A model generated the notes under the pieces. That model was not told the DNA's origin, made no database searches, and was given only the letters and a program-made list of their open reading frames with translations. 64,000 nt of DNA from a bacterium (GTDB lineage: Bacteria > Myxococcota_A > UBA9160 > UBA4427), in contig JANSYR010000001.1 in the NCBI GenBank assembly GCA_024742285.1, forward strand, positions 62,001 to 126,000, written 5' to 3'. Positions 22,297-25,160 of the stretch are shown one piece after another. The stretch's first letter is position 1; the number at the start of each line of letters is the position of its first letter. Made by a program: the position numbers and the translations under genes.

Positions 22297-23457
22297 CTAC
22301 TCGCCGAGCCAGTCCCGGAAGACTTCGGCATCGTGCGCGCCGACCTCGGGGCCCACGTGCCGATGGCGCCCCGGTGTGTCCGACAGCTGCGGCGCCGGCG
22401 CGACGAATCGGAGCGGACCCATCCGCGGATCCTCGAGCGTCGTGACGCTCGATCTCGCGCGCACGTGGGGATCCTCGAGGATCGCGTCGAGGTCGTTCAC
22501 CGGGGCGACCGGAATCCGGATCCCGTGGAACGCCTCGAGGGCTTCGTCGCGGGACCGCTCCGCGATCCAGGCCGCGACGTGACCGTCGAGCTCGTCCGCC
22601 GCCGCGAGTCGCGCTTCGCTCGTCCCGAAGCGTTCGCGGTCCGCCGGACCGTCGCGCCCCAGGAGCGTGAGGATCCGGGCCACCTGCGCGTCGGTCGTCC
22701 CCGAGAGCGCGAGATAGTCGCCGTCCCGCGCCCGGTAGAGGTTGCGCGGCACGCCGCCGGCGACCCGACTGCCCATGCGCGCGGGCGGAGGGCCTTGGCC
22801 GTCCCAGGTGACGAGCGGGAGCGCGAGCAGCTGCAGGATCGGCTCGACCATCGTCACGTCGACGTGCTGTCCCCGACCGGTCCCGCCCGGTCGGTCCCGG
22901 GCGTAGAGCGCCATCATCGTGCCGATCACGCCGGACAGCCCCGAGAGCGTGTCTCCGAGCGGCAGCGACGGCACCATCGGCGGCCCCTCGGCTTCCCCGT
23001 TCAGGTGCGCGAAGCCGGAGAAGGCCTCCGCCAGGGTCCCGGCCCCCGCGCGATCCGCGTAGGGCCCCGTCCGTCCGTAGCAGGAGATGCTCGTCACCAC
23101 GAGCCGGGGATGGCGCGCCGACAGCGTCGCGTAGTCGCAACCCCAGCGCGTGAGCAGCTTCGTCGTCAGGTTCTCGACCAGGACGTCGGCTTCCGCCAGG
23201 AGGCGCTCGAAGCGCGCGCGATCCGCCGCGTCGTCGAGATCGAGGGCGATGCTGCGCTTGTTCCGCGCGACCAGCGCCCACTGCGGCGACGCTCCGTCCC
23301 TCGACACGCCGATCCGGCGGATCGGATCGCCCCCCGGTGGCTCGACCTTGACCACGTCCGCCCCGAAATCCGCGAGGGTGGCGGCGATCTGCGGGGCCGC
23401 GAAGAGATTCGTCAGATCGAGGACACGGACCCCCGACAGGGCCTGGGCTTCCGGCAT
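22297..23457 (-). CDS. CaiB/BaiF family III CoA-transferase (3)
   Basis: Protein of 386 residues with [12 protein letters not shown] near 33-44, VARNKRSIALDL near 62-75 and the likely catalytic aspartate in PLGDTLSG. It is clearly a different subgroup from the other two in this window. No ribosome site is visible before the ATG, but TAGTGT, a plausible -10 hexamer, ends about 8 bases upstream on this strand. It is divergent from the selenoprotein gene with 106 bases between, so the two could share control. Confidence 0.9.
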   Translation of the reverse strand: MPEAQALSGVRVLDLTNLFAAPQIAATLADFGADVVKVEPPGGDPIRRIGVSRDGASPQWALVARNKRSIALDLDDAADRARFERLLAEADVLVENLTTKLLTRWGCDYATLSARHPRLVVTSISCYGRTGPYADRAGAGTLAEAFSGFAHLNGEAEGPPMVPSLPLGDTLSGLSGVIGTMMALYARDRPGGTGRGQHVDVTMVEPILQLLALPLVTWDGQGPPPARMGSRVAGGVPRNLYRARDGDYLALSGTTDAQVARILTLLGRDGPADRERFGTSEARLAAADELDGHVAAWIAERSRDEALEAFHGIRIPVAPVNDLDAILEDPHVRARSSVTTLEDPRMGPLRFVAPAPQLSDTPGRHRHVGPEVGAHDAEVFRDWLGE

Positions 23458-23563: not shown

Positions 23564-24097
23564 ATGTCCCGCATCACGATCCTCGACCCCACCGCCCCGC
23601 CGCCCGACGTCGACGCCGACCCCGGCCCGACCCTGGGCGCCACGGCGTCCACCCGGTTCGGCATCCGCTACGACCTCACCTGGCGCTCCTTCGACTGGGT
23701 GCGCGACGAGTGGGCGTCGATGCTCGCCGACGAAGGCGGCGTCGTGACACAATGGTGTGCCGGCGACCGAACCGGGGAAGCCGCCGAAGCGACCCTCGGC
23801 GACCTGCGCGGCTTCGTCACGGATCGGGAGGTGCTGATCAGCGGCCTCGGAAATTGAGGGAGCTGTACCTCCTGGACGGTGCACGACGCGGTCGTCGCAC
23901 TGCAGGAGGGCAAGACGGCGGTCGCCGTCGTGACTTCCGAGTTCGAAGCCCTGGCGCACACGATGGCCGCGAACGCCGGTCGCTCTGGCCTTCGCGTTCA
24001 CGTCCTGCCCTATCCCCTCGACAGTCGCCCCGAGAAGGAGGTGCGTGAGATTGCAAGAGAGCACTATCGACCGCTCTTGCGGACCCTCGGGTTGTGA
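23564..24097 (+). CDS. UGSC-family selenoprotein (in-frame UGA at 23855-23857)
   Basis: Read straight through the UGA at 23855-23857, this frame gives 177 residues with Sec98 in GLGN-U-GSC-TSW. Ignoring the UGA leaves a 97-residue fragment, and no start codon with a ribosome site explains the second half. Both halves share one frame and the second half keeps family-like character (VAVVTSEFEALAHT, HVLPYPLDSRP), so this is recoding rather than a broken gene. The U-G-S-C motif is the one that names the UGSC (seleno)protein family, as I recall it; function unknown, and U-x-x-C suggests redox chemistry. A strong hairpin lies 11 bases after the UGA. AGGAG precedes the ATG. The partner gene overlaps its last 53 bases. 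Confidence 0.85.
23868..23909 (+). promoter_or_regulatory. Putative bacterial SECIS hairpin
   Basis: Lower stem: CCTCCTG (23868-23874) with CAGGAGG (23903-23909), 7 perfect pairs. After an asymmetric bulge the upper stem pairs GTGC (23879-23882) with GCAC (23897-23900) and ACGAC (23883-23887) with GTCGT (23891-23895), with C23896 bulged. The loop is GCG (23888-23890), 31-33 bases after the UGA. Loop distance, a G at the start of the loop and an upper stem of at least 4 pairs fit the bacterial SECIS rules as I know them. Confidence 0.7.
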
Positions 24098-25160
24098 GGT
24101 CAGCTGGCTGTCGAGCCAGCGCCTCGAGATCGACGCGGACCCGTCGGCCTTCGCGAAGCTCGCGACCGAAGCGGGCTGGGGAGACGGCCTGCCGCTGATC
24201 CCGCCGACCGAAGAGCGCGTGCGCGCCTTCGTCGCCGCCTCGGGCCGCTTTCCCGATCAGCTGCTGGGCGTCCTGCCGCCCCGGGACGGGCGCTGCACCG
24301 TCGAGAAGCTCGCGATCAACGCGGTCATGGCCGGCGCGCCGGCGGAGGCGATGCCGCTTCTCTGCACTGCGATCGAAGCCTGCGTCGACCCGGCCCTCGA
24401 CCTCTTCTCACTCAACACGACGACCAGCTCGGTCGTTCCGGGCGTCTTCGTGAACGGACCGATCCGTCACTCCCTCGAGCTGCCGATGGAAGCGGGGTGC
24501 TTCGGGGGCGTGCCGGGGACGGCGCCGGCGATCGGACGCGCGCTGCGCCTCACGATGCGCAACATCGGCGGCCAGAAGATCGGCGAGAACTCGAAGAGCG
24601 TCTTCGGACAGCCGGGACGGGTGACCGGGATCGTCGTCGCCGAGTGGGAGGAACGCTCTCCCTGGGCGCCCCTCGCCGAGCGCCGCGGGGTGACGGGCGA
24701 CGCGGTCACGGTCTACGGCTGCATCGGCACGATGGACATCGCCGACGTCGCCGCCGACACGGGCCGGACCCTCACCGAGCTCATCGGCAAGAGCCTCGCC
24801 TACCCGGGCACCAACGCCTACGTCAGTCACTGGGGTGCCGAGACGATGGTCTGCCTCGCCCCGCCGTGGGCCGACCTGATCGCCAAGGACTTCCCGACGA
24901 TCGAAGACACGCAGGAGGCGCTCTGGCACGCTGCGGCCCATCCCATCGACTTCTTTCCGGAGCCCCATCGGGCCTGGCTCGAGGAGCGGGGCCGCATCGA
25001 CGCGCAGGGGATCGCGCACCTGGTGGAGCGCCCCGACGAGATCCTCGTGATGGTCTGCGGCGGCCTCGGCAACCTGCATGCGTTGGGCCTGCACAACTTC
25101 GGCCCGACGCGCGCGGTCACGCGCGCGATCCGCGCCGAGGAAGACTCGAACGAGACCTAG
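24045..25160 (+). CDS. Conserved-looking partner of the UGSC selenoprotein, function unknown
   Basis: Protein of 371 residues from GTG at 24045, or 369 from TTG at 24051. AAGGAGG at 24035-24041 lies 3 bases before the GTG and 9 before the TTG, so TTG is well spaced. Either start overlaps the selenoprotein gene by about 50 bases in another frame, a sign of coupled translation. I do not recognise a named family. Visible landmarks are GWGDGLPLIPPTEERV, FSLNTTTSSVVPG, SVFGQPGRV and near the end VCGGLGNLHALGLHNFG. No signal peptide or membrane helix is seen, and there are several cysteines. Tight linkage suggests a complex or shared pathway with the selenoprotein. Confidence 0.8.
   Translation: MRLQESTIDRSCGPSGCEVSWLSSQRLEIDADPSAFAKLATEAGWGDGLPLIPPTEERVRAFVAASGRFPDQLLGVLPPRDGRCTVEKLAINAVMAGAPAEAMPLLCTAIEACVDPALDLFSLNTTTSSVVPGVFVNGPIRHSLELPMEAGCFGGVPGTAPAIGRALRLTMRNIGGQKIGENSKSVFGQPGRVTGIVVAEWEERSPWAPLAERRGVTGDAVTVYGCIGTMDIADVAADTGRTLTELIGKSLAYPGTNAYVSHWGAETMVCLAPPWADLIAKDFPTIEDTQEALWHAAAHPIDFFPEPHRAWLEERGRIDAQGIAHLVERPDEILVMVCGGLGNLHALGLHNFGPTRAVTRAIRAEEDSNET

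Follow-up and report, generated by a model that had tools for sequence, protein, structure and literature searches.

The described enzymes closest to the locus analysed here are two-protein reductases that carry selenocysteine (Sec). In D-proline reductase, composed of PrdB and PrdA, PrdA carries a pyruvoyl group. PrdB has been described as a homologue of GrdB (PMC13188914), which with GrdE makes up glycine, sarcosine and betaine reductase. Glycine reductase and D-proline reductase both cleave a C–N bond; the former uses thioredoxin, and for the latter a review argues against its use (PMC10298544). For fluoroacetate, cleavage of the C–F bond by a GrdB/GrdE-like pair has been proposed (PMC10838667).

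The UGSC selenoproteins have ranked among the commonest environmental selenoproteins since the counts of 2008, without a function, and a 2026 review places them among the families with largely uncharacterised functions. The 2008 paper reports fusion of UGSC to a conserved domain termed 'Unknown_1' alongside several other domain fusions, with a thioredoxin (Trx)-like fold assumed for the family (PMC2398784). 'Unknown_1' is likely, though unproven, to be the partner family described below. The sequence-only reading of the locus had proposed that a selenoprotein and an unknown protein form an undescribed two-protein enzyme system. The pair as a unit is supported below; the word 'undescribed' has to be qualified, since the fusion was mentioned in 2008, and enzyme activity has not been shown. 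In the literature searched, we found neither the obligate pairing, the GrdB homology, the thioredoxin-domain fusion nor the 1:1 expansion of UGSC and partner.

Selenoprotein and partner genes

The window, the whole stretch of 64,000 nucleotides that was analysed, contains a UGSC-family selenoprotein gene at positions 23564–24097 of the forward strand, which encodes 177 residues including Sec98 when TGA is translated as U and ends with the stop TGA at 24095–24097. The product matches Pfam family PF24696 with 95.5 bits (cut-off 25) and NCBIfam model NF041046 with 62.2 bits, under the equivalog cut-off of 125, a divergent member by NCBI's narrower model; NCBI annotation may miss this window-type branch or end it at the UGA. 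The protein meets the U/C-G-x-C motif with Sec from an in-frame UGA. The Sec codon, codon 98 and the U of U-G-S-C, is the TGA at 23855–23857 (forward strand), and the codon of the proposed resolving cysteine C101 of U-x-x-C, invariant across the UGSC alignment, lies at 23864–23866 (forward strand). Assignment of Sec rests on the alignment, in which this column is Cys or Sec in 73 of 73 UGSC proteins (Cys in orthologues L016–L022), and on the decoding machinery of the genome, which has a tRNA-Sec with anticodon TCA and a SelB above the curated cut-off. Each of the genome's five UGSC genes has one in-frame TGA. No SECIS-like hairpin more stable than shuffled sequences was found after the window UGA (z = 0).

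The partner gene occupies 24045–25160 of the forward strand (371 residues from GTG 24045); its conservation marks it as a real gene rather than an open reading frame that arose by chance. As the sequence-only reading had stated, it starts inside the selenoprotein gene: the frames overlap by 53 nt if translation begins at GTG 24045 or by 47 nt if it begins at the alternative, in-frame TTG 24051. The AAGGAGG that the same reading had placed ahead of the partner is present at 24035–24041 (forward strand), within the selenoprotein gene, and is probably the partner's ribosome binding site, but its spacing to the GTG is short. Because it lies only 3 nt from the GTG and 9 nt from the TTG, the start codon is undecided, and either may be the true one. 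The window contains eight AAGGAGG sequences against 5.8 expected. The N-terminus around 'R-CGPeGC-idWL' is kept in the aligned orthologues L012, L013 and L016, so the start must fall near it. Overlap of the two genes is confined to a few members of the families; the usual gap is tens of bases.

Pairing of the two families

All five UGSC proteins of the window genome have an adjacent partner, five in total. A sixth partner 'copy' (C6:30828), suggested by a tblastn match, lay in a frame without the family motifs and was not recovered by the profile; it was set aside as spurious. Partner relatives were found in at least 576 stretches of GTDB genomes, the top match being 69% identical over its whole length, in Betaproteobacteria, Chloroflexota/SAR202, Actinomycetota, Rokubacteria, Poribacteria, a haloarchaeon and others. 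Among the best 80 of these stretches, from many phyla, a UGSC gene stands beside the partner in 74, in either gene order. Three of the six unpaired loci (L026, L048 and L066) stop at a contig edge, and the genomes of the other three (L036, L060 and L065) carry UGSC elsewhere. In 17 pairs of these 80 loci the two proteins are fused in a single reading frame with UGSC at the N-terminus; one natural fusion (L055) was modelled as one confident unit (pTM 0.94).

The same association holds within the class of the window genome, where 67 of 90 genomes have UGSC, 69 have the partner and 67 have both (Fisher p = 1.5e-18); in the two genomes with the partner only, the matches begin at a contig end. A same-strand adjacent partner was found at 127 of 140 UGSC places in these 90 genomes (median gap 69 bp), with the partner first in 106 cases and UGSC first in 23. 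On plasmids, where partner homologues share 27 to 36% identity with the window partner, 12 of 12 inspected loci have an adjacent or fused UGSC-like domain, and the partner is annotated there by NCBI as 'hypothetical protein'. Copy numbers of partner and UGSC are near 1:1 in 18 genomes from many phyla (6/6, 1/1, 7/7, 9/8, 34/31 and so on). For nine UGSC paralogues of one metagenome-assembled genome (MAG), the distance matrix correlates with that of their partners (r = 0.935, Mantel p = 2e-4). For the five pairs of the window genome, all of them 19–44% identical, the correlation was not significant (Mantel test, r = 0.21).

Since the two families are paired, fused and kept at near 1:1 copy number, and since their distances track each other, we infer that they are subunits of one machine. 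This upholds the proposal of a selenoprotein and an unknown protein encoded as one unit, with the activity itself inferred. The sequence-only reading had also named what would overturn it, namely a partner widespread without a UGSC or CGSC neighbour. That is not what is found, with the partner present in 67 of 67 class genomes that have UGSC; homologues of the two, known from hundreds of bacteria and from some archaea, are nearly always found together and often fused, and among the 80 outside loci the exceptions are contig edges or unlinked copies in the same genome.

Several arrangements depart from the common one. UGSC and partner are both kept in an unlinked state in G079, G080, G086, G049, G103 (the genome of L060) and others; G103 has one of each, far apart on a single chromosome. 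At L067:5986–9026, one UGSC gene is followed by three consecutive partner-family genes. A genome labelled as a Chitinophaga pinensis bin (G107, the genome of L081) has 31 UGSC proteins, 34 partners and a clear tRNA-Sec (75.5 bits); its taxon label may be wrong. In fusions on plasmids of Sporomusa termitida (L114:5284–7008) and Vibrio europaeus (L115:4326–6011), MGTS replaces U/C-G-x-C, and both adjoin aconitase X and DUF126 genes. Judged by their motif, these fusions are a catalytically changed branch, and because the fusion is retained, some copies would have to act without the Sec/Cys motif.

Sequence and fold of the partner

An AlphaFold2 model of the partner is confident (mean pLDDT 92.6, pTM 0.92). 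In an alignment of 72 partner sequences, the near-invariant N-terminal signature is WGDGLPLIPPT (24177–24209, forward strand), with D47 and G48 invariant and L49, P50, P53, P54 and T55 conserved in at least 90%. Further invariant or near-invariant positions are N92, M95-A-G97, T126/T127, G138, G164-R165, E200, E202, W207 and G339-G340. The conserved polar residues suggest, in the absence of any demonstrated activity, that the partner may be an enzyme.

The family could not be placed, in agreement with the sequence-only reading: neither the window protein nor any of the 72 members had a significant match in Pfam or NCBIfam, a sequence search of the PDB gave no relative, and neither Foldseek nor VIA-align gave a clear structural match to the model. 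This absence does not show that the fold is new. The GGLGNLHALG string at 25059–25088 (forward strand) is real and represents the C-terminal motif of the partner family itself (GGxGx(x)H[AS]); its resemblance to GLGN-U-GSC of the selenoprotein, raised earlier as a possible shared binding site, was rejected as chance by comparison of the partner and UGSC profiles (probability 0.2%, E = 0.33).

In fold, the partner weakly resembles class-I fumarase and cyclic-amide hydrolases (Toblerone-like; Foldseek E about 1e-3, TM about 0.2, VIA Z 4.2), which raises the question of whether it is a stand-alone enzyme, for instance a hydratase or hydrolase of one of these types, with UGSC serving only to keep its cysteine or cluster reduced. 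The many invariant polar residues would suit such an enzyme, as would the fact that members whose UGSC domain is degenerate still have the partner. The structural match is, however, not strong enough to rely on, the cysteine of the MAGC motif common in the family is alanine in the window copy, and for UGSC, as a mere maintenance factor, being kept near 1:1 would be unusual. We consider a stand-alone partner unlikely.

Kinship of the UGSC domain with GrdB

Profile comparison with hhalign aligned UGSC to the C-terminus of GrdB-like proteins (E = 8.7e-8, probability 94.4) with the Sec and Cys columns ungapped, and 13 decoys of the GrdB profile scored E = 0.039 or worse. Conversely, the C-terminus of a genuine GrdB matches PF24696 above its cut-off (E = 4.6e-7), and a second falls just below it (23.6 of 25 bits, E = 6e-5). 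By these profile matches, UGSC and the C-terminal domain that carries Sec in GrdB of glycine reductase are homologues. The Pfam GRDB match stops immediately ahead of Sec, at model position 347, a possible reason why the kinship was not obvious. A second, shorter family of GrdB/PrdB-like selenoproteins with a V-U-PxC motif (L095–L112; in the window's own genome C15:136325, L112:5050–5709) occurs in the same class; its members were found with the GRDB Pfam model, whose match again ends just before Sec.

In the fused model, the UGSC part is a flavodoxin-like alpha/beta domain whose best match (8s7v_H, Z 11.1) is one among many alpha/beta folds, so that only the fold class can safely be read from the prediction. 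The Trx fold suggested in 2008 was not borne out by this model, which matches flavodoxin-like folds instead.

The kinship makes it conceivable that the window pair is a true but diverged GrdB/GrdE or PrdB/PrdA enzyme, as UGSC and the GrdB C-terminus are homologous and glycine reductase has a thioredoxin link too. Against this, UGSC has no GrdB N-terminal region: PF07355 gave no match to the window protein at E up to 10 and is not among the listed families of 73 UGSC members. Searches of the window protein against NCBIfam at E up to 10 returned NF041046 and one unrelated weak model only, and not PrdB. None of the 72 partners matched the GrdE/PrdA Pfam family at E up to 1, or any other family, and separate GrdB-like proteins exist in the same class. 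A diverged Grd or Prd enzyme is therefore very improbable.

Thioredoxin domains and redox genes

Many partner copies are extended at the N-terminus by a domain that contains a CPTC motif. It was present in 20 of 20 class copies sampled, which had been chosen for long open reading frames, together with a VPT-type loop (VPS in one copy and VPA in another), and it also occurs in a gammaproteobacterial partner (L078). The domain of L137 matches Redoxin (Redoxin/AhpC-TSA) with 54.8 bits against a cut-off of 26.6; two others tested matched Thioredoxin below its cut-off, and one of these matched TraF above cut-off. From the CxxC, the cis-Pro loop and the Pfam match, the extension of the class partners is assigned to the thioredoxin fold. 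The window partner lacks it.

Separate thioredoxin genes accompany other pairs. The order is trxB–trxA–partner–UGSC on an Arthrobacter plasmid and partner–UGSC–trxB in a Roseovarius plasmid locus, and a trxB gene is found in the vicinity in Variovorax. Of the 12 plasmid loci, no more than 3 have trxB next to the pair or close by. As a universal neighbour trxB was rejected: the 80 genome loci gave a single trxB, about 5 kb off, and the association is limited to a subset.

Genomic neighbours and expansion in a Chloroflexota genome

Divergent from the window pair lies a class-III (CaiB/BaiF) CoA-transferase gene (22297–23457, reverse strand; PF02515, E = 3e-114), and close homologues lie near the pair in the related loci L012, L013 and L020. 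Enoyl-CoA hydratases occur near some pairs. TctC carboxylate-binding proteins make up 25 of 132 nearest neighbours and 18 of 288 genes farther away (p = 2e-4). From these neighbours, we infer that the substrates are small, probably carboxylic, compounds from which a polar group is removed reductively; no substrate has been shown.

A Chloroflexota MAG of 5.0 Mb (JACPQD01, G095; loci L024, L036, L046, L058, L071 and L162–L181) has at least 150 UGSC domains (the best 150 of 208 candidates), 146 of them with an in-frame TGA, and at least 150 partners. One contig of 350 kb contains 20 UGSC copies and another of 359 kb contains 18, and SBP_bac_5 receptors and an enoyl-CoA hydratase are found among the pairs. 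In 20 regions of four contigs, each of the 62 UGSC domains has a single TGA, which falls at the motif, and none of the 62 lacks a partner. The copies are not assembly duplicates, since the median identity to the nearest paralogue is 66%. Published record holders have 57–63 selenoproteins, with a maximum of 63 (PMC13188914). With at least 146 UGSC genes containing an in-frame UGA, JACPQD01 would exceed twice the largest published bacterial selenoproteome, and this is relevant to the question of why selenium is used so heavily by microbes in the environment. Caution is needed, as this is a MAG in which no tRNA-Sec was found, the best candidate being a tRNA-Ser; the assembly may be incomplete.

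Copy number and neighbours also bear on a role in oxidant defence or repair, in which UGSC would use its Sec and thioredoxin to reduce peroxides, disulfides or sulfoxides, and the partner would be a docking or scaffold protein. The U-x-x-C motif, the thioredoxin-like fusions and the treatment of UGSC as a Trx-fold redox protein by earlier authors (PMC2398784) all point that way. The flavodoxin-like models and the homology to GrdB do not, and substrate-specific catabolism better fits both the at least 150 diverged paralogues in one genome and the placement of pairs with uptake and CoA genes. Oxidant defence is accordingly improbable in our judgement.

Proposed enzyme

We favour, with somewhat better than even confidence, the reading that UGSC and its partner form one GrdB-like, thioredoxin-fed Sec/Cys reductase, whose chemistry and substrate are inferred. 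Beneath it lie computed results: obligate pairing, fusion, co-divergence, homology to the GrdB domain, Sec decoding capacity and thioredoxin-domain fusion. The two proteins would be two subunits of one enzyme, a complex that is inferred for the unfused window pair. UGSC would contribute a small flavodoxin-like domain with the Sec/Cys at a helix N-terminus as nucleophile, which may attack a substrate bound to the partner at an activated carbon or heteroatom, as is thought for GrdB and PrdB. The cysteine three residues on (C101) could then resolve the adduct, leaving an Se–S bond. The attack and the Se intermediate, its resolution by C101 and the reductive direction are inferences, as is re-reduction by the thioredoxin system, whose electrons would arrive through the fused CPTC domain in many copies and through separate TrxA/TrxB in others. 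Paralogous pairs would each take a different substrate of the inferred class through dedicated uptake systems, and the substrates would then enter CoA-ester catabolism.

Several observations count against this model: trxB is found in only a subset of loci, some pairs are unlinked, and the two MGTS fusions lack the Sec/Cys motif. In addition, the partner is not a recognisable GrdE or PrdA by sequence, so that its substrate-activating chemistry, which in those proteins relies on a pyruvoyl group derived from a cleaved cysteine, is not predicted by homology. More tentative, and a claim to which we give slightly less than even weight, is the wider proposal that the pair represents an unrecognised and very large class of Se-dependent, thioredoxin-fed reductases, combining a GrdB-type Sec domain with a subunit of new fold and expanded in some groundwater Chloroflexota to at least 150 substrate-specific copies, which would be by far the largest selenoproteome known. 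With its links to an obligate partner, to thioredoxin and to the GrdB catalytic domain, the orphan UGSC family becomes an enzyme class open to testing, and the cultured bacteria Roseovarius and Arthrobacter have plasmid-borne Cys versions that are directly testable.

Comparison with known systems

By Pfam, the upstream window protein belongs to the UGSC family (PF24696, NF041046; the GOS 'UGSC-containing' family). Glycine, sarcosine and betaine reductase shares with the pair a homologous Sec domain, in which U-x-x-C is followed by E-x-x-G-I-P-T, and an organisation as a two-protein, substrate-specific unit with a thioredoxin link and substrate-specific paralogues. It differs in that UGSC lacks the GrdB N-terminal region and that profile searches show no relation between the partner and GrdE; moreover, haloarchaea and numerous environmental phyla also have UGSC and partner. 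D-proline reductase likewise combines a small Sec subunit (PrdB) with a larger partner (PrdA), whereas the window UGSC has no NCBIfam PrdB match and its partner belongs to no PrdA-like family. The fluoroacetate reductase FarB/FarE provides a precedent for GrdB-type proteins with a proposed action on a C–X bond other than that of glycine, with a dedicated transporter (PMC10838667); in contrast to UGSC and partner, FarB and FarE are full-length relatives of GrdB and GrdE, from anaerobic Synergistota.
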